Shown here: positions 26,571 to 38,432 of the stretch, one piece after another
How the letters are laid out: every line of letters begins with the position of its first letter
Position numbering within the stretch: the first letter of the stretch is position 1
Assembly: GCF_947503795.1 (NCBI RefSeq)
Contig: NZ_CANNEZ010000001.1
Location: 1,851,001-1,915,000, forward strand
Direction of reading: 5' to 3'
Origin: an uncultured Jannaschia sp.
GTDB taxonomy: Bacteria > Pseudomonadota > Alphaproteobacteria > Rhodobacterales > Rhodobacteraceae
Length of the DNA: 64,000 bases
The notes under the pieces: model-generated
What the model saw: only the letters and a program-made list of their open reading frames with translations
Databases searched by the model: none
Told to the model about the DNA's origin: nothing
Translations under genes and position numbers: made by a program

Positions 26571-26645
26571 TCCGGCGTAGCTCAGCGGTAGAGCAGTTGA
26601 CTGTTAATCAATTGGTCGTAGGTTCGATCCCTACCGCCGGAGCCA
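26571..26645 (+). tRNA. tRNA-Asn (GUU)
   Basis: 75 nt with encoded CCA. Acceptor TCCGGCG/CGCCGGA, D-arm GCTC/GAGC, anticodon loop CTGTTAA with GTT, T-arm GTAGG TTCGATC CCTAC. Its 3' end (from 26630) is repeated at 38416, marking it as the integration target of the downstream island. Confidence 0.97.
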
Positions 26646-26646
26646 A
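26630..26646. repeat. attL core repeat (tRNA-Asn 3' end)
   Basis: CCTACCGCCGGAGCCAA, identical to 38416-38432. It covers the T-arm 3' strand, acceptor stem and CCA of tRNA-Asn, so the tRNA is restored on insertion. Confidence 0.92.
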
Positions 26647-26700
26647 TTATTCCTCTTAGACCCCTTTTTTCCTTGTGTTCAAGGGGGTTTGCTGTTGTTC

Positions 26701-26734
26701 ACGACACACAGCAGAACACACAAGAGGACACACA
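26701..26734. repeat. Three 12-bp-phased integrase arm-type repeats (left end)
   Basis: GACACACA-like units at 26703, 26715 (AACACACA) and 26727 in exact 12-bp phasing, directly before the integrase ATG. The same ACGACACACA word recurs twice near the right end, as expected for tyrosine-integrase arm sites. They may also autoregulate int. Confidence 0.65.
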
Positions 26735-26735
26735 G

Positions 26736-28055
26736 ATGGCCCTGCAAACGAAGATCAAGCACATCGATAAGCGACCGAATGGGGTGCTTCGTTTTCGTCG
26801 CCGCTTCCCTAAGGATGTCGCTGAGGCGCTGGGCGAAGGGTTCCTGCAAGTGCATATCCGCAACACGGAGGGGCTGGCCTTTCATCGGGAGTATCAGGAG
26901 GTCATGGCCGAGTTCGACCGGATGGTCCGACAGACCCGTGAGGAGCTACAGCGCCACGGCAACGACCACCGGACCACCCAGCAGAAGTGGCATGATGCCC
27001 TGATAACTCGTGCAGGCCTCACCTCAAACGTCGTTGGGCTGGACCCGGATGACCCTGAGACGGGCCGGATGATCTTCGAGACCATGAGAACCAAGCCTGA
27101 CCCGATGCTGACCAAGGCTCTCCTCGACCCTGAGGCCCCTGCACCCAAGGTCACCCTCATGGACGCCTTCAAGCTCTACCGGCAGGACAAGCGTATCGAG
27201 GAAGGCAGCAAGCAGGGCGTGGACCTGAGCCGTGTGTCTGCCCGTGTAGAGGCTGCTCTGGGTGACCCCGACAAGGTGGCCCTAGAGGACATGACCGTCG
27301 ATCACAGACGCCGCTATCTCGACCACATGCTCAACGCCAAGAAGGCTGATGGCACCACCATCGCTCTGGGGTCTGCCAAGAGGGAGACGAACATCGTGGT
27401 GGCCGTCGTCAACCACGCCCTCAAGGAGATGGACATCGCGGCGATGAACCGGTTCGCTGACCTCCCATGGCCCAAGGAGCAGAAGCTGGCGGTGGACAAG
27501 AAGCTGCCCCTACCGGATGACCTTGTGTCGAGCATAGAGGCCCGCCTGAGTGAGAACCTGAGGCCCCTGTGGGTGCTGCTGAGAGGCACCGGGATGCGCC
27601 TTGGAGAGGCCGTGGGTCTCGTCACAGACGACATCGTCCTCGACGGAGAGACCCCTCATGTCCTCATCCGCCCCAACTCCATCCGCACCGTGAAGACAGC
27701 TTCAAGTGTCCGTTCTGTGCCCCTCGTCGGAGAGGCCCTGAGAGCCGTCAGGGAGGCCCTCGAAGGTGCCCCGTTGGGTTTCCCTATCTTCCCCCGCTAT
27801 GGCCGTCCTCGTGGCGCTGACGCAGCCTCTGCAGCCCTGATGAAGGTGGTGAGGGATGTCACCCCCGACACCCGGTTCACCGTCCATGGTCTCCGTCACC
27901 GAGTGAGCGACAAGCTGCGTGATGCTGGGGCACCTGTAGAGGTCCGTTACGGCTTCCTCGGGCATGCCAATCAGGCCGTCGCTGAGACGACCTACGGGTC
28001 ACCGAAGGCGAGGCTCAAGGAGTTCCAAAAGTGGGCTGTGAAGGCTGCCCTGTAG
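26736..28055 (+). CDS. int: Tyrosine recombinase (phage-type integrase)
   Basis: Catalyses island excision and integration at tRNA-Asn. 439 residues from ATG at 26736. Catalytic set visible: Arg288 (GTGMRLGEA), His384 and Arg387 (HGLRH), His410 (LGHAN) and Tyr420 (TTYGS). The N-terminal region (KHIDKRPNGVLRFRRRFP) is the usual arm-binding part, followed by a SAM-like core-binding domain (~130-250). An in-frame start at 26673 would add residues that merely translate the arm repeats, so it is not used. Located 90 nt from the attL core. Confidence 0.94.
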   Translation: MALQTKIKHIDKRPNGVLRFRRRFPKDVAEALGEGFLQVHIRNTEGLAFHREYQEVMAEFDRMVRQTREELQRHGNDHRTTQQKWHDALITRAGLTSNVVGLDPDDPETGRMIFETMRTKPDPMLTKALLDPEAPAPKVTLMDAFKLYRQDKRIEEGSKQGVDLSRVSARVEAALGDPDKVALEDMTVDHRRRYLDHMLNAKKADGTTIALGSAKRETNIVVAVVNHALKEMDIAAMNRFADLPWPKEQKLAVDKKLPLPDDLVSSIEARLSENLRPLWVLLRGTGMRLGEAVGLVTDDIVLDGETPHVLIRPNSIRTVKTASSVRSVPLVGEALRAVREALEGAPLGFPIFPRYGRPRGADAASAALMKVVRDVTPDTRFTVHGLRHRVSDKLRDAGAPVEVRYGFLGHANQAVAETTYGSPKARLKEFQKWAVKAAL

Positions 28056-28253: not shown

Positions 28254-28730
28254 TCATGAGGACAGCGGGATGCCTTCGGGCTCATTTCCGGACCGAACCG
28301 CCGCCATGTATCGCTTGATCGAGAGACCGTAGAACTTCTTGGTATATGCGTTCGCGGCCTTAGCGATGTTCATCCGACCATCAGCACGCGGCGGCTGCAT
28401 GTGTATGTCAGGGTCTGTCAGGATGTTCCTAAGACCAGCATCATACGGGATAAACTCCAGGATGTGCTTCATTACCCCAAGGCGTTCCTGCGGGGGCGCT
28501 GAGTAGACCATCTCAGCTAACCGCTGGGCGCGCTCATAGTGCCGCCGCGAGCGTTCTCTGTTCTCGAAACTACGGTTGCCCCGTGAGGCGTTCTTCTGGC
28601 ACGCCCGTGAGCAATAGCTTTGGTTGAGCCTCTGGGGCGTGAAAGCGGTGGTGCATCCGGGGCACTCGATGGTGCGGGCTTCATCCGCAGAAGGGATGAG
28701 CATGCCAATGGGATCGACAGCGTCGAACAT
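28254..28730 (-). CDS. Small protein with putative zinc ribbon, unknown
   Basis: 158 residues from ATG at 28730 with AAGGA at good distance. A CPGC...YCSRAC four-cysteine arrangement (about residues 27-48) suggests a zinc-binding knuckle, followed by a basic Arg-rich helix (NRERSRRHYERAQRLAEM), so nucleic-acid binding is plausible. The rest (HILEFIPYDAGLRNILTDPD) is not recognised. Convergent with the integrase. Could be an excisionase-like or regulatory factor of the island; that is a guess. Confidence 0.65.
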   Translation of the reverse strand: MFDAVDPIGMLIPSADEARTIECPGCTTAFTPQRLNQSYCSRACQKNASRGNRSFENRERSRRHYERAQRLAEMVYSAPPQERLGVMKHILEFIPYDAGLRNILTDPDIHMQPPRADGRMNIAKAANAYTKKFYGLSIKRYMAAVRSGNEPEGIPLSS

Positions 28731-29076
28731 AAAGGGTTCCTTTCGGTGGTGATGGGGAGATGCGAAGGTGGGAGGTCTTGACCGTCGAAGACGGACCTCC
28801 TTGCTGGAGGTGCATGTGAAGATGCGCCTGATAATCACCTGAGGAACTCAGGGGCGCTTCAGCATGCCTTTCATGGGCAGCGTTCACATGGCGACTTCGT
28901 CCTTGGAGACCCAAGGAGATGATGAAGTTCGAACATGCTCGCTAAGCTGGCTTAGGGGCTTTGGTCTTCGCCGCGATCAGCGGCAATGGGTCTTCACTTG
29001 ATAGAGTGCAAGCTCAGGGCCATGCAGCGAAGCTGGAGCAAGCTGAGGGTTCACCATTAAGATTTGGCTTCGTTCG

Positions 29077-30929: not shown

Positions 30930-32495
30930 ATGGTCGATGGAGATGTGGAGAAAAGGCTTTGGTCTGCAGCGGACCAGCTATGGGCCAACACAGGCCTGAA
31001 GCCGAGCGAATTTTCGACCCCTGTCCTCGGCCTGATTTTCCTCCGCTATGCTGAAAAGCGGTTCGCCATCGCTGAGGATCGAATTGGTCCGGTTGGCTCG
31101 GGCAATCGCCGCAAGGTTAGCAAGGCAGACTATGACGCAGAGGGCGTGATCTTTCTCCGCCCCGAGGCTCGCTTCAGCCACCTTCAGTCATTGACCGAGA
31201 GCGACGACATCGGGAAAGTCATCAACGAGGCGATGCAGGGCATCGAGGAAGATAACCCCGACCTCGCCGGTGCCCTGCCCAAGACCTACACCGACCTCGG
31301 CAACAACGTGTTGGTCGAGCTGATACGCCTCCTTGCGCCCATCGACCTGACCGGTGACGCTTTCGGCAAGGTCTATGAATACTTCCTCGGCAACTTCGCC
31401 ATGAAGGAAGGCCAGAAGGGCGGCGTCTTTTATACACCTGAAAGCATCGTAAAATTGATCGTTGAGATCATGGAGCCTTACCACGGGCGCATCCTCGACC
31501 CGGCCTGTGGCTCTGGCGGCATGTTCGTCATGTCAGCGAACTTCGTGGAGCGTCACGGAATGACGCCGTCCAGTGAGATCAGCATCTACGGGGTCGAGAA
31601 GGACCGCGTCACCGTCAACCTCAACAAGATGAACCTCGCCGTCCATGGCCTTTCAGGCGACGTGCGCGAGGCCAACACCTACGCCACCGACATCAAGCAG
31701 CTCTTCCCGAGGGTCTTTGACGAACGCGGCGGATTCGACTTCGTCATGGCCAATCCCCCGTTCAACGTCTCGGGTCTCCGCAAGGATGACCTGGAGGGCG
31801 ACTGGCGGTTCCCCTTCGGCATCCCTAGGCCCGACAACGCGAACTACCTCTGGATACAGGTGTTCCACGCCGCGCTGAATGATCAGGGCCGCGCGGGCTT
31901 CGTCATGGCGAACTCGGCGGGCGATGCGCGGGGCAGCGAGCAACTGATCCGGCAAAGGCTGATCGAGGATGGCAGCACCGATGTCATCGTCTCAGTTGGG
32001 CCGAACATGTTCTACACGGTCACCTTGCCCTGCACGCTGTGGTTCTTCGATAAGGGCAAACGCGGGACGGAGCGCGAGGACACCGTTCTGTTCCTCGACG
32101 CCCGGTCCCTCTACCGCCAGATCGACCGCGCCCACCGGGACTTCCTGCCGGAGCAGATCGAGCTGCTGTCGAACATCGTGCGGCTCCACCGGGGCGAGGC
32201 GGTGGAGCTTGAGGCGGGCAGCGCGGAGCTGCTGGCCGAGCATGGGCTGGACGCGGGCTATGCGGACGTGCCTGGCCTGTGCAAACGCGCCACGCGGGCC
32301 GAGATCGAGGCGCAGGGCTGGAGCCTGAACCCCGGACGCTATGTCGGAGCCGCTGCTCGGGCGGAGGAGGATGTGGACTTCGTGGTGCGCTTCGAGGAAC
32401 TGAACGAGGAACTGGTGCAGCTGAACGCCGAGGCGGCGGCGCTGGAGGAACAGATTGCAGAGAACGCGGCAGTGGTGCTGGAGGCCGCTAGATGA
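30930..32495 (+). CDS. hsdM: Type I restriction-modification system methyltransferase subunit HsdM
   Basis: N6-adenine methyltransferase subunit. 521 residues: HsdM N-terminal helical domain ([23 protein letters not shown]), SAM-binding motif [11 protein letters not shown] near residue 190 and catalytic NPPF near 274, then a coiled C-terminal segment ([21 protein letters not shown]). Its stop overlaps hsdS by 4 nt (ATGA). Intact, so the host should be protected. Confidence 0.96.
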
Positions 32496-33739
32496 GGCCA
32501 AGCGCGGATGAGTGGGCCGAGATCGAACTGGGGCAACTCGGGTCGATAGTGACCGGCAGGACCCCTCCAAAAGCTGAACCTGAGCTGTTCGGGTCTGACT
32601 ATCCGTTCTTCACTCCATCCGACATGAGCTATGGTGACCGTTCGCCGCCAACTAATCGTTTCATATCGAACGATGGGGCCCGACGATTCCGACGCATCCG
32701 GTTGCCGACTGGATCGACATGCTTTGTCTGCATTGGCGCAACCATCGGCAAGGCGTGTCTGACATCTCATCCGAGCTTCACCAACCAACAGCTCAACAGC
32801 ATCATCCCTGACGATAAGCGGCACGATCCGCGTTTCGTCTACTACCTGCTGGTATCAGTTGCCGACGACATCAAAGCTCTCGCATCCGGTGCTGCGACGC
32901 CGATCATAAACAAATCCTCGTTCTCGGCGTTCAAAGTAAAGGTGCCATCCCTCCCCACCCAACAGCGCATCGCGGCGATCCTCTCGGCCTATGACGACCT
33001 GATCGAGACCAACACGCGCCGCATCGCGATCCTCGAAGAGATGGCCCGGCGGCTCTACGAAGAATGGTTCGTCCACTTCCGCTTTCCGGGGCACGACGAA
33101 ACGGCGTTTGAGAAAAGGCCGGTCTCGGATTTGGCAGAGATAGTTCGTGGGCGTTCCTACAAGAGTTCAGAGTTGGTCGCGGAAGGCGGCAGGCCATTCG
33201 TGAACTTAAAGTGCGTCAATCGAGACGGTGGCTTTCGGCGCGACGGATTAAAGCGATATGAGGGCCGCTTCAAAGAACAGCAATTGGTGTCCAGTGGCGA
33301 CATTGTTATGGGGGTGACTGACATGACCCAAGAGCGTCGAATTGTTGCGCGTGCGGCACTCGTTCCGGAGTTGGGGGATGTTGATGGACTGATCTCTATG
33401 GACCTTGTGAAGATAGTTCCCAAGCCGCCAACTACCAATGTATTCCTCTATGCGGCCTTGCGTTGGTCTGACTTCGCCGAGAACGTAAAGAACCATGCGA
33501 CCGGCGCGAACGTGCTGCACCTCCATCCTGACCGCATCAGCGAATACCTCATGCCACTTCCCCCAGTGGAGTATCAGCAAAGGTTTGCGTCTGTGGCTGC
33601 GCCGATCATTGAAGAGATCGAGCTTCTCGAACAGAAAAGCGCCAACCTCCGCGCTCAACGCGAGCTGCTTCTGCCGAGGCTGGTCTCCGGCGAGATCGAC
33701 GTGAGTGGGGCGGAAAACGCCATGGAGGCTGCAGAATGA
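32492..33739 (+). CDS. hsdS: Type I restriction-modification specificity subunit HsdS
   Basis: DNA-recognition subunit of 415 residues with two target-recognition domains (about 1-150 and 210-360). Each is followed by a conserved helix: [18 protein letters not shown] and [20 protein letters not shown], the standard spacer repeats that set the gap in the bipartite site. C-terminus ends [15 protein letters not shown], typical of the family. Overlaps neighbours on both sides by 4 nt. Recognition sequence cannot be predicted by eye. Confidence 0.95.
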
Positions 33740-34311
33740 GCGAAAGTGATCACTTTTCGGGCGGGGTCAAAAAACTAGCACAAAAAATCCGCCAGAGATC
33801 ATCTGATCTTTCGCCATTTTTAAACGGGGTGGACGCATTCACGGCTGAATTGCAAGGAATACCAGACAGAACTTATCTGAACAAAGCCACGCTCCATAAA
33901 ATCGCAAAAGAAAAAAGCCCACGCAAGGCCGATCTAGTATTTAACAATTCAGATGAAGCGATAGAGAGGATTACAGCTTTAGCATTTTCGCTGAATGAAG
34001 ACGCCAAGTCTATGCAGTTGCTGTGCGTTTTGGATGGCGTAAATGTTCCGACAGCATCGGCAATACTGAGCTGGATGTTTCCTGAAAAATGGCCTGTCAT
34101 CGACCAGAGGGCTTGGCGGGTTCTTTACAACGCCGAGATCGTCAATACTCGCGAAGACGGGATAGGACTGGGTGTGCCACAATGGAACGAATACATGAAA
34201 GCCGTTCGGGAATTGCATCGGGCCATTCCTGATCTTGCGAAAACACCGCAGCAAGTTGACCGCTTACTTTTCGGCCTCGATATTTTGACAGCAAATGAAG
34301 GCGATGCATGA
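33736..34311 (+). CDS. HhH-GPD-like protein embedded between hsdS and hsdR
   Basis: 191 residues of unknown function. The central block (about 95-130) reads LCVLDGVNVPTASAILSWMF then WPVIDQRAWRVL. This matches the helix-hairpin-helix plus Gly/Pro-Asp layout of EndoIII/AlkA-type DNA glycosylases, with the PVID Asp (~121) in the catalytic Asp position. No Fe-S cysteine cluster is present, and the catalytic Lys of lyases is not evident. Codon-coupled to both neighbours by 4-nt overlaps, so it belongs to the restriction operon. Composition is much more AT-rich than hsdM. Could bind or excise modified bases, or help target HsdR; alternative is a non-enzymatic DNA-binding partner. Confidence 0.7.
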   Translation: MSESDHFSGGVKKLAQKIRQRSSDLSPFLNGVDAFTAELQGIPDRTYLNKATLHKIAKEKSPRKADLVFNNSDEAIERITALAFSLNEDAKSMQLLCVLDGVNVPTASAILSWMFPEKWPVIDQRAWRVLYNAEIVNTREDGIGLGVPQWNEYMKAVRELHRAIPDLAKTPQQVDRLLFGLDILTANEGDA

Positions 34312-37300
34312 CCCCAACCGACCAAGCCCACGACTATGGAGAGGAAGCTGCGATCGAGCAGCCCGCCATCCAGTTGTTCGCGGACTTGGGTTGGGAAACG
34401 GTGAACCTTTACCACGAGTGGAACAGCGGTGGCTCGACGGAGGGACGCGAAAGCGAAGCTCAGGTCATTCTTGAAGACCGCCTTCGTGGTTCTCTTGAAC
34501 GGCTCAACCCCGACCTGCCCCCAGCGGCCATCGCTCAGGTGATCGAAGAGGTGACCCGCGAACGGTCCCGCATGGTGCCTGTGAACGCCAATCAAGAACT
34601 GTGGCGGTTGATGCGCGAAGGGGTGAAGGTCAAGGTCTCCAACCCGCGCGGTGGACAGGAAACCAAGACCGCCAAGGTGATCGACTGGCGGAACCCCGAG
34701 GCGAACAGCTATCTCCTCGCCTCTCAGTTCTGGGTGAAGGGCGAAATGCACCGCCGACGGCCCGACCTTATCGGGTTTGTGAACGGCATCCCTTTGGTGC
34801 TCGTTGAGCTGAAAAAGCCGAGCGCCCCGGTGAAGTCGGCCTATGATGACAACCTGACCGACTATCGCGACACCATCCCGCATGTCTTCACGCCGAACGC
34901 CTTTGTCATCCTGTCCAATGGCATCGAGACAAAGGTCGGCAGCACCTTCGCCCCTTGGCAGTTTTTCAATGAGTGGAAGCGGATAAACGACGAAGGTGAA
35001 GAAGGCGTTGTTTCGCTGGAGACGGTTATCCGTGGTCTCTGTGCACCAGACAAGCTGCTCGATGTCGTCGAGAACTTCATCGTCTTCGAAGAGGAGAAGT
35101 CGGGTCTGGTCAAGAAGCTGGCCAAGAACCACCAATTCCTGGGGGTCAACCGTGCCATCGTCGAAGTCATCACCTCGAAGGAGCGGCCCAAGGGAGAAGC
35201 TGGACGGCTTGGTGTCTTCTGGCACACGCAGGGCAGCGGCAAGTCTCTATCCATGGTCTTCTTCTGTCAGAAGATACTGAGGACCGTTCCGGGCAATTGG
35301 ACCTTCGTGATCGTTACTGACCGGAATGAATTGGACGAGCAGCTCTACAAGACGTTCTTGGCGGTTGGGGCCGTGACCAATACTGAGGTGCATGCTGAAA
35401 GTGGAGCACATCTGAAGCAGCTGCTGTCGGCAGACCACCGCTACGTCTTCACCTTGATCCAGAAGTTCGGGACCAAGGACGGAGCGGCCTACCCAAAGCT
35501 CTCGGACCGGCAAGACATCATCGTCATCACCGACGAGGCGCACCGCACGCAGTATGACACGCTGGCCCTCAACATGCGGAACGCGCTCCCTAACGCTGCC
35601 TTCCTCGGCTTCACCGGGACGCCCCTGATGGCTGGAGAGGAGCGCACGCGCGAGGTCTTTGGTGACTACATCTCGATCTACAACTTCGCCCAGTCCATCG
35701 CCGATGGCGCTACTGTTCCGCTCTACTACGAGAACCGCATACCTGAGTTGCAACTGACCAATGAGGCGCTGGGCGATGACTTGGAGCAGTTGCTGGAAGA
35801 CGCTGACTTGGACGAAGAGCAGGCTCTCAAGGTCGAGCGTGAATTTGCCCGCGAATATCACCTGATCACGCGAGACGACCGCCTCGATGCCATCGCATCT
35901 GACCTCGTCAGGCATTTCGTTGGACGGGGCCTGAAGGCCAAGGCAATGATGGTTTGCATCGACAAAGCCACTGCCGTCAGAATGCACGACAAGGTTCGCG
36001 AGCAATGGGATATCTACCGAAAAGAGCTTGAAGCCCAGCTGGACAAAGCCCTAGAGGAAGAACGCCCTGCAATCGAAGCCATGATTGACTTGATGAAGAC
36101 GACCGATATGGCCGTCGTCGTCTCTCAAAGCCAGAACGAGATCAAAGAGCTTGAAAACAAGGGCTTGGACATCCGTCCGCACCGTAAGCGTATCGTCGAA
36201 GAAGACCTCGATGAACGCTTCAAAGACGCCAACGACGACCTCCGCCTCGTCTTTGTCTGCGCGATGTGGATTACCGGGTTCGATGTGCCGTCCTGCTCCA
36301 CTATCTACCTCGACAAGCCGATGAAGAACCACACGCTCATGCAGACTATCGCAAGAGCCAACCGGAACTTTCCGGGCAAGGAAGCAGGCGTCATCGTTGA
36401 CTACGTCGGCGTCTTCCGGAACCTACAAAAAGCGTTGGCAATCTATGGCGGCGGCAACACCGGCTCTTCGGAACCCCCGATCAGAGACAAAAGCGATCTT
36501 GTCGAGTATCTCCGCCACATCATCGCGGCGACTTTGGGCTATATAAACGAACGCGGAGTAGACCCAACAGGCATAAAAACAGCTCAGGGTCTGGAAAAGG
36601 CCGCTCTCATCGGAGAAGCCGTTGAGAACCTAATCGAGACCGATGAGGCCAAACGCGAGTATCTGAGTAAAGCGCGGGCCGTCTCGCGGGTATATAAGGC
36701 CATCCTGCCCGACAGCGCCTCGACAGAATTCACTCCCGACGCTGTGTTGATCTCGGTTCTCGCGGAACGCATCCGGTCGCTAATGCCGAAACCGGACATC
36801 AGTGCAGTCATGCAGGACGTGGAAGACCTTCTCGACCGCTCGGTCGCCCCAATCCCATATGAGACGCCCGATGACGCCGAAGTGATCGACATCAGCCAAA
36901 TCGACTTCGACAAGCTACGCGAAAAATTCGACACCGGAAAAAAGCGAACCGAGGCGGAAAGTCTTCGGGCGCTCTTGAGCCAGAAACTCAACGCCATGGT
37001 TGCAAGGAACCCGACGCGGGCCGATTTCTTGGAGCGATTTCAGAAGCTGATCGACGGCTACAACAACGACAGCCAAAATATCGAGGCATTCTTTCGAGCC
37101 CTGATCAAGCTGGCGGAAGACCTGACGGATGAAGAAAGAGAAACGGCCAGAGAGGGCCTTTCAGAAGAAGAGAAGGCGGTGTTCGACATTCTGACAAAAC
37201 CGGAGCCCGAGCTTTCTGAGAAAGAAAAGGCCCAGGTCAAGACAGTCGCACGAAGCCTCTTGGAAAGGCTGAAGAAGGACAATCTCGTTTTGGACTGGCG

Positions 37301-37472
37301 AAACAAGCCGCAAACCAAAGGAGCCGTTAGGCAGTCGATTGAGATCGTTTTGGATGGGGGGCTGCCGGATGTATACGACGAGGACATCTTCAAAACCAAG
37401 TGCGATGCCCTCTACCGACATGTTTTCGAGGCCTATCACGGTGGCGGTCAAAGCATCTACGCCGCTGCGTAG
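34308..37472 (+). CDS. hsdR: Type I restriction endonuclease subunit HsdR
   Basis: Motor and nuclease subunit of 1054 residues. N-terminal PD-(D/E)xK nuclease: RRPDLIGFVNG then LVELKKP (about 150-170). SF2 helicase: Walker A HTQGSGKS near 305, TDEAHRTQYD near 407, GFTGTPL (motif III), and motif VI ARANRNFPGKEAG. C-terminal HsdR helical region follows. Full length and intact, so restriction should be active. Starts by 4-nt overlap with the HhH-GPD-like gene. Confidence 0.95.
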   Translation: MTPTDQAHDYGEEAAIEQPAIQLFADLGWETVNLYHEWNSGGSTEGRESEAQVILEDRLRGSLERLNPDLPPAAIAQVIEEVTRERSRMVPVNANQELWRLMREGVKVKVSNPRGGQETKTAKVIDWRNPEANSYLLASQFWVKGEMHRRRPDLIGFVNGIPLVLVELKKPSAPVKSAYDDNLTDYRDTIPHVFTPNAFVILSNGIETKVGSTFAPWQFFNEWKRINDEGEEGVVSLETVIRGLCAPDKLLDVVENFIVFEEEKSGLVKKLAKNHQFLGVNRAIVEVITSKERPKGEAGRLGVFWHTQGSGKSLSMVFFCQKILRTVPGNWTFVIVTDRNELDEQLYKTFLAVGAVTNTEVHAESGAHLKQLLSADHRYVFTLIQKFGTKDGAAYPKLSDRQDIIVITDEAHRTQYDTLALNMRNALPNAAFLGFTGTPLMAGEERTREVFGDYISIYNFAQSIADGATVPLYYENRIPELQLTNEALGDDLEQLLEDADLDEEQALKVEREFAREYHLITRDDRLDAIASDLVRHFVGRGLKAKAMMVCIDKATAVRMHDKVREQWDIYRKELEAQLDKALEEERPAIEAMIDLMKTTDMAVVVSQSQNEIKELENKGLDIRPHRKRIVEEDLDERFKDANDDLRLVFVCAMWITGFDVPSCSTIYLDKPMKNHTLMQTIARANRNFPGKEAGVIVDYVGVFRNLQKALAIYGGGNTGSSEPPIRDKSDLVEYLRHIIAATLGYINERGVDPTGIKTAQGLEKAALIGEAVENLIETDEAKREYLSKARAVSRVYKAILPDSASTEFTPDAVLISVLAERIRSLMPKPDISAVMQDVEDLLDRSVAPIPYETPDDAEVIDISQIDFDKLREKFDTGKKRTEAESLRALLSQKLNAMVARNPTRADFLERFQKLIDGYNNDSQNIEAFFRALIKLAEDLTDEERETAREGLSEEEKAVFDILTKPEPELSEKEKAQVKTVARSLLERLKKDNLVLDWRNKPQTKGAVRQSIEIVLDGGLPDVYDEDIFKTKCDALYRHVFEAYHGGGQSIYAAA

Positions 37473-37496: not shown

Positions 37497-38258
37497 ATGC
37501 CTTCACTAGCCGAAAAATTCGCAAAGTCCTTCGTTGGTGCACCAAAGCAAAAGTTCGTTTGCCCTACGTGCGGCCAGGGTCTCTTGGTGCCTGATGCTTC
37601 CACTTTCTTCGAGATCGAACCAGCATTCTCCAAACGGGCACATGGCCACGAGGCATGGGACCCCGACTGGATCACCAGAAGGTTCACCTTTCGGAGCATA
37701 TGCAACGACGAGGAATGCGCCGAAATTGCAATCGTTTCTGGCCACGGCGGCGTAGAGCAAGGTTATGGGTATCATGGAGAGATGGAGTATTACGACTACA
37801 ATCGCATCGAAACTTTCTTCCCAGCACCTCACCTAATCCCCATCCCCGAAAAGGCACCTTACGAAGTCGAAAAGCTTCTGAAGAAGTGCTTTGTTCTTTA
37901 CTGGGTGGACACTTCGGCAGCTGCGAACGCGATGCGAGCTAGTCTAGAAGCGCTTATGGACGAGATGAAAGTGCCTACCTCCAAGAAAACAAAAGCGGGC
38001 AAAGTGGTCCCAATATATCTTCACGAGCGCATTCAGCTTTGGTCCGAAACCCATGAGGAATATGCGGACCTCTGCATTGCGCTGAAAGAAGTAGGAAACC
38101 TTGGCTCGCATGGGGAAACAGTTAGGGAAAAGCACTTCTTCGGGGCGCTTGAGATTTACTCGCATGTCGTGCAGCAGCTGTTCGAGAACAACGCCGCGAA
38201 GATGAAAGAACTGGCCGAGAATATCCGCTCCGAGATCAAGGGCAAGAAGAAGGTCTAG
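37497..38258 (+). CDS. DUF4145 domain protein with N-terminal zinc knuckle
   Basis: 253 residues, 24 nt after hsdR. N-terminal CPTCG and CNDEEC pairs suggest a zinc site; the C-terminal ~120 residues carry the DUF4145 pattern (PYEVEKLLKKCFVLYW, NAMRASLEALMDEM, LHERIQLW, LKEVGNLGSHG). DUF4145 proteins often accompany or are fused to restriction endonucleases, with unknown role. Lower GC than the chromosome. Last gene before attR; likely part of the hsd transcript. Confidence 0.88.
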   Translation: MPSLAEKFAKSFVGAPKQKFVCPTCGQGLLVPDASTFFEIEPAFSKRAHGHEAWDPDWITRRFTFRSICNDEECAEIAIVSGHGGVEQGYGYHGEMEYYDYNRIETFFPAPHLIPIPEKAPYEVEKLLKKCFVLYWVDTSAAANAMRASLEALMDEMKVPTSKKTKAGKVVPIYLHERIQLWSETHEEYADLCIALKEVGNLGSHGETVREKHFFGALEIYSHVVQQLFENNAAKMKELAENIRSEIKGKKKV

Positions 38259-38415: not shown

Positions 38416-38432
38416 CCTACCGCCGGAGCCAA
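38416..38432. repeat. attR core repeat
   Basis: CCTACCGCCGGAGCCAA, an exact copy of the tRNA-Asn 3' end at 26630-26646. The sequence around it has no tRNA, showing it is the displaced end of the target site. Confidence 0.92.

Follow-up and report, generated by a model that had tools for sequence, protein, structure and literature searches.

Between hsdS and hsdR of a type I restriction-modification (R-M) operon, the window (the whole 64,000-nucleotide stretch of uncultured Jannaschia DNA analysed here) contains an additional gene, referred to as X. The question raised by this locus is what kind of protein X encodes, and whether this protein belongs to the restriction machinery.

Organization of the operon

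30930-32495, plus strand: hsdM, type I methyltransferase subunit (N6_Mtase/HsdM_N domains)
32492-33739, plus strand: hsdS, specificity subunit (Methylase_S domain)
33736-34311, plus strand: X, 191-aa OGG2-related HhH-GPD protein with Pro105 at the catalytic-Lys position and Asp123 kept (ORF, profile alignment)
34308-37472, plus strand: hsdR, restriction/translocase subunit (HSDR_N and SWI2_SNF2 domains)

Judged by their domain matches, hsdM, hsdS and hsdR form one operon encoding a genuine type I R-M system. X runs from the ATG at 33736 to the TGA at 34311 (576 nt, 191 aa). When these 576 nt were base-shuffled 2000 times, the frame stayed open in none of the shuffles. The last nucleotide of hsdS is 33739 and the first of hsdR is 34308, so that both junctions of X are ATGA overlaps of 4 nt, in agreement with the arrangement described in the first-pass annotation; the hsdM/hsdS junction is built likewise (32492-32495). 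Shine-Dalgarno-like motifs are located just upstream of the X start (GGAGG) and of the hsdR start (GAAGG). Together, the open frame absent from the shuffles, the overlaps and these motifs indicate that X is a real gene, whose translation is probably coupled with that of hsdS and hsdR.

It had also been proposed that X is translated as part of the complex. This goes beyond the overlaps, which suggest translational coupling only; membership in the HsdMSR complex does not follow from them. Nor is it a general rule that type I operons hold only M, S and R, as had been assumed, since prrC is described as lying inside a type IC operon (PMC3874165). The 3' end of hsdR overlaps with a terminator-like hairpin (37457-37472). 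In the region, 14 such hairpins were found against 8.6 +/- 3.4 in shuffles, which is not clearly more than chance.

Relation of X to HhH-GPD proteins

X reaches the cut-off of no Pfam family, including PF00730 (HhH-GPD) and PF22175 (Ogg-HhH). NCBIfam returned only sub-threshold MutY and RuvA matches across the hairpin (E 0.06-0.085). Names from Pfam, PADLOC and NCBIfam, all sub-threshold or unrelated, were dropped. The genome of the window has four PF00730 HhH-GPD genes, X not among them, and no match to PF22175.

A match was found to phrog_24538 (E 5.2e-8), a phage protein family of unknown function whose 109-position model spans only the C-terminal half of X and its relatives. It is also matched by L002, L003, L004, L006 and L007 (E 5e-15 to 0.007). 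Twelve further family loci are considered here: L002 (the same as L052), L003, L004, L006, L007, L053-L057, L092 (the same as L093) and L094, the match of L056 being partial, spanning 46% of the query, with no annotated gene beneath it, and unaligned. The family is distributed over bacterial genomes, plasmids of Deinococcus and haloarchaea, and phage-like contigs. A contig scan of genomes confirmed two relatives from 301 pattern matches, L052 being the contig of L002. Scans of viral contigs confirmed no relative, and tblastn gave nothing useful, either with X against plasmids and phages or with the L053 protein against phages.

Ten family sequences were aligned (A7), and the profile of this alignment was used for searches; another alignment, A12, served for some column counts. 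Among PDB chains, the A7 profile matched the OGG2 entries 9o02 (E 1e-5), 9o00 (3.9e-5), 3knt (6.6e-5), 3fhf (8.3e-5) and 3fhg (1e-3), with OGG2 matches spanning E 1e-5 to 1.1e-3 overall, and reached MutY and EndoIII chains at E 0.13 to 0.67 only. A further alignment, A13, represents EndoIII/MutY by five MutY sequences and three HhH-GPD proteins encoded in the window's genome. Compared with it by hhalign, A7 gave a probability of 91.9 and a score of 52.5 over 49 columns of the HhH-GPD block; none of 200 column shuffles scored above 17.8, and the reversed alignment scored 14.1. The score of 52.5 is partly circular because five of the eight A13 rows were picked via matches to the family profile, which does not apply to the OGG2 matches in the PDB. 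The HhH-GPD likeness noticed at first pass can thus be read, by profile, as homology: X belongs by these comparisons to the HhH-GPD superfamily, where it is best placed beside the OGG2 8-oxoguanine glycosylases.

Across 390 genomes of the order, the family profile had a strong match in the window's own genome only, and four weak matches (L018-L021; E 3e-5 to 8e-4) fall with other subfamilies. In the class of G643, the A7 profile matched 49 of 274 genomes at E<=1e-3, against ~0.3 expected by chance; the 49 include the centre itself. Six ORFs were read among the 48 non-centre genomes, four of them MutY by eye (L063, L066, L069, L074) and two from other subfamilies (L067, L081). L018-L021, L067 and L081, weak matches resembling other HhH-like subfamilies, were left out of the family, as were the MutY-like matches, including L009 and L013, which are MutY by eye among the nine non-family matches of one search.

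Some of these excluded proteins have features of their own. L018, L019, L021, L067 and L081 are small proteins with an FPIWDS/YVVLDS-type loop and are perhaps sister HhH-like families; the first three match DUF6308 below cut-off (E 0.005-0.024). The 350-aa protein of L020 (1300-2352) combines a weak HhH-like match with an endonuclease VII/HNH-like region at its C-terminus (phrog_3322, E 8.1e-13); by eye, it has Asn at the catalytic-Asp position of the family.

Active site and base pocket

34036-34116, plus strand: HhH-GPD core of X, residues 101-127 (GVNVPTASAILSW...PVIDQRAW; profile alignment)
34258-34272, plus strand: residues 175-179 of X (DRLLF), D175 and F179 aligning with Asp194 and Trp198 of MjOGG2 (alignment, column counts)

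Within the core, GVNVPTASAILSW begins at residue 101 and PVIDQRAW at residue 120. Aligned with MjOgg, whose residue numbers were derived from printed alignment coordinates, P105 of X corresponds to residue 129, D123 to Asp147, D175 to Asp194 and F179 to Trp198. The helix-hairpin-helix followed by a catalytic-Asp loop, as first read from the letters, is supported by this alignment. D123 is Asp in 10 of 10 A7 rows.

Residue 129 of MjOgg is Gln in 3knt and Lys in 3fhf. In OGG-type enzymes, Lys is the nucleophile. Position 105 is never Lys in A7 (Pro in eight rows, Val in one, Ser in one), and L092 and L094 likewise have the Pro and the Asp. The missing catalytic Lys, already remarked on in the first-pass annotation, hence extends to 12 of 12 aligned members. 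The loss of this residue may simply abolish the activity of X. MutY and AlkA work without the catalytic Lys. The chemistry expected of X from its residues would be that of a glycosylase without AP-lyase activity, or base reading without cutting. The lack of an Fe-S cluster, also noted earlier, holds as well, since X has a single Cys (97).

The column of D175 is Asp in 9 of 10 A7 rows, and position 179 is aromatic in all ten, with Phe179 in X versus Trp in OGG2. In MjaOGG2, Asp194 and Trp198 are described as part of the base pocket, where Trp198 stacks on the base (PMC3397491). The retention of an OGG2-type pocket makes base removal or sensing by X more concrete, and a possible function. According to the same source, the C-terminal Lys of OGG2 is strictly conserved and senses 8-oxoG (PMC3397491). 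It is absent from X, the last Lys of which is K169 of 191 residues, so that 8-oxoG itself appears doubtful as a substrate.

Two other basic positions are conserved, with Lys at position 60 in nine of the ten A7 rows and Arg at that of R63 in eight. Adjoining Lys60, residue 59 (33910-33912) is Glu in X alone and Trp in 9 of 9 aligned relatives. This unique Glu59 suggests that the present copy may have drifted.

Predicted structure

The single-sequence AF2 model of X has a pLDDT of 40.4 and was set aside as a basis for the fold; the structure of X was therefore approached via a relative, L053, which is 25% identical to it. Modelled from five sequences, L053 consists of helices only (pLDDT 92.7, pTM 0.89). 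In a Foldseek search against the PDB, its seven best chains, from four entries, are all OGG2 (E 2.8e-3 to 5.2e-2, TM ~0.5), none at E<=1e-3, and the remaining chains in the best 50 of 187 matches are other HhH-GPD-type glycosylases. Mag2 (4b21) is found among the weak matches (E 0.40). Against a viral structure library, matches were weaker and mostly to unnamed phage proteins (best E 2.9e-2). The OGG2-like model of L053 thus shows the proposed glycosylase fold, at weak E values and with MutY and EndoIII as weaker matches; X itself, whose own model is poor, may have the same fold. A Brig1-type (uracil-DNA glycosylase) fold was rejected, as the best 50 of the 187 PDB matches of L053 are of the HhH-GPD type.

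Neighbourhoods of the relatives

A type I operon was present at 0 of the 12 other family loci in the stretches examined, a survey based on incomplete plasmid gene tables, some short flanks and ORFs read by eye. The five G genomes with family members were searched for R-M domains: HSDR_N matches occur in three, all on other contigs, and N6_Mtase matches in all five, the sole same-contig case (G643) lying ~1.2 Mb from the family member.

Two relatives look defensive from their surroundings, being located beside known or candidate defence genes. L004 (L108, G319:C3:37500-57200) shares a 4-nt overlap with a DUF2779 gene; a PDC-S02 nuclease-like gene is located 14 nt away, a PDC-S06 ATPase gene is close by, and two integrase-like genes were recognized by eye. 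L006 (L109, G643:C1:2872600-2892400) has a divergent Avs3a gene ~0.5 kb away (E 1.1e-196). At 10 of the 12 loci no defence gene was found, the PADLOC scan covering six proteins from the neighbourhoods of four loci. In L052 (9875-10801), a RelE-family gene begins immediately after the family member (PF06296, with E 6.2e-21 for the same gene in L002), and a SAM-dependent methyltransferase gene (PF08241) begins 2 nt after that of L053 (234-1516). In the phage-like contigs (L092:7920-8516, L094:612-1148), the family gene and a tape-measure-like gene are, by eye, in divergent orientation. Other neighbours are TatBC/glutaredoxin-like, glutamine-synthetase-like, pnp-like (by eye) and formamidase/formate dehydrogenase genes.

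The reverse comparison started from HsdR: of 244 genomes from the order, 43 have a match to it at E<=1e-50, counting the window's own. The four closest other HsdR relatives (L023-L026) share 41-44% identity. In L023, L024 and L025, no gene intervenes between hsdS and hsdR, and the gap measures 3, 3 and 9 nt; the count rests on these three junctions, L026 having no readable hsdR start. The suggestion that X is a dedicated restriction partner is weakened by both comparisons, and X as a regular fourth type I subunit was rejected, because the order S-X-R does not recur in the 12 other loci and X is absent in L023, L024 and L025.

The tRNA-Asn island

26630-26646, plus strand: 17-bp repeat, attL-like, at the 3' end of tRNA-Asn (repeat search)
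26673-28055, plus strand: tyrosine integrase adjoining tRNA-Asn (Phage_integrase, Pfam match)
37497-38258, plus strand: DUF4145 gene, 24 nt downstream of hsdR (DUF4145, E 4.7e-9)
38416-38432, plus strand: 17-bp repeat, attR-like, exact second copy at the island end (repeat search, empty-site comparison)

The tRNA-Asn gene (26571-26645) is followed by the integrase, and the 17-bp repeat of its 3' end has one further copy in the window. The distance from tRNA-Asn to tRNA-Gly is 11.9 kb in the window. Ten congener loci were scanned: the gap is 45-46 nt in three (L097, L102, L106), which are empty sites of the island, and ~0.4 kb in L101, and tRNA-Asn was not found in the scanned stretch of six. 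The repeats and the empty congener sites delimit an island of 11.8 kb at ~26.63-38.43 kb.

The GC content of X (0.47; GC3 0.46) is the lowest among the nine island genes measured, compared with 0.565-0.62 for hsdMSR (GC3 0.66-0.81) and 0.66 for the window. This low value suggests a separate arrival of X. The DUF4145 domain is reported as a HEPN family present in operons with R-M systems (PMC3710099), and through this gene the island may possess a second, RNA-directed arm. An island gene on the reverse strand (28254-28838) has a weak HNH/zinc-finger-like match (phrog_1271, E 1.5e-5).

Possible roles of X

Our preferred reading, to which we assign a probability of about 0.5, is that X is an HhH-GPD member nearest OGG2, devoid of the catalytic Lys, and carried in the type I operon as accessory base-directed defence or repair cargo. 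X would have been captured into the R-M operon of the tRNA-Asn island, where its translation would be coupled to hsdS and hsdR. The protein would bind DNA and flip a base that is modified or damaged into the pocket it has retained; it would then either excise this base by Asp-assisted hydrolysis without strand cleavage or only read it. The likely benefit would be a second barrier, directed at bases, to DNA that evades or survives restriction, with X acting beside the HsdMSR complex and not inside it.

It is possible, at about half that likelihood, that X is a non-catalytic reader: bound to abasic or modified sites, it would leave the bases in place and tune the translocase/nuclease HsdR. The glycosylase homologue Mag2, which is among the weak fold matches, binds such sites, and a reader would also be consistent with the non-Lys residue at the catalytic position of all aligned members and with the overlap between X and hsdR. 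However, the invariant catalytic Asp and the conserved base-pocket positions fit retained chemistry, and the hsdS-hsdR junctions without X in L023, L024 and L025 indicate that related HsdR proteins need no X.

Somewhat less probable is a hitchhiking repair gene that serves damaged host DNA, is unrelated to restriction and owes its position to an accident of island assembly. The TatBC/glutaredoxin-like, glutamine-synthetase-like, pnp-like and formamidase/formate dehydrogenase neighbours of relatives and the separate arrival marked by the low GC content point in this direction. It is opposed by the in-frame 4-nt overlaps at both ends of X, the defence surroundings of L004 and L006, and the four PF00730 HhH-GPD genes that the genome already has.

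A more ambitious role, as a built-in base-excision arm of the type I system, seems unlikely. Here X would attack phage DNA in which base modification defeats recognition by HsdS and would leave abasic sites there, perhaps under the guidance of HsdMSR or upon release by it, with the HEPN neighbour as a further RNA-directed arm; in a chemical variant, another residue, such as the conserved K60 or R63, would replace the lost Lys. Finally, a chance resemblance, with X being an alpha-helical protein of another fold, is highly improbable: the lack of a Pfam family above cut-off, the poor single-sequence model and the weak fold matches would allow it, but the profile, shuffle and L053 model results speak against it.

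Comparison with known systems

The closest known proteins are those of the OGG2 group (MjOgg 3knt/3fhf, SsOgg 3fhg, Tm1821 3n0u; PF22175). The profile match with X covers the hairpin, the catalytic-Asp loop and the C-terminal helix, the best fold matches of L053 belong to this group, and Asp123, Asp175 and Phe179 of X correspond to Asp147, Asp194 and Trp198. In contrast to OGG2, X has Pro105 at the Lys129 position and lacks the C-terminal Lys. With MutY and EndoIII, X shares the HhH-GPD block over 49 aligned columns and, with MutY, the absence of the catalytic Lys, but it is much shorter, has no Fe-S cluster and shows the weaker fold match.

Brig1, described as a defence DNA glycosylase (PMC11078745), resembles X in idea only, the defence consisting in the removal of bases from modified phage DNA; the structural homologues named for it are uracil-DNA glycosylases, which have another fold (PMC11078745). 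Restriction glycosylases of the PabI type also exist. Extra genes inside type I operons are already known (prrC, rloC). PrrC of EcoprrI is likewise the product of an additional gene inside a type I R-M operon, but is presented as an anticodon nuclease held in the R-M complex (PMC3874165), whereas X is DNA-glycosylase-like. For rloC, linkage to R-M is reported as rare, with 8 of 73 having a type I or III system (PMC2610378). Among the matches listed for the open-licence literature, titles and abstract openings contained no report of a type I operon that includes an HhH-GPD gene, and a full-text literature search combining HhH-GPD, anti-phage and restriction was without result.

If X excises or reads modified bases, a single operon would unite restriction guided by sequence and attack guided by bases, which would be a natural response to phages with modified DNA. 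X would then also provide a first functional handle, with a testable active site, on the scattered family formed by phrog_24538 and its relatives.
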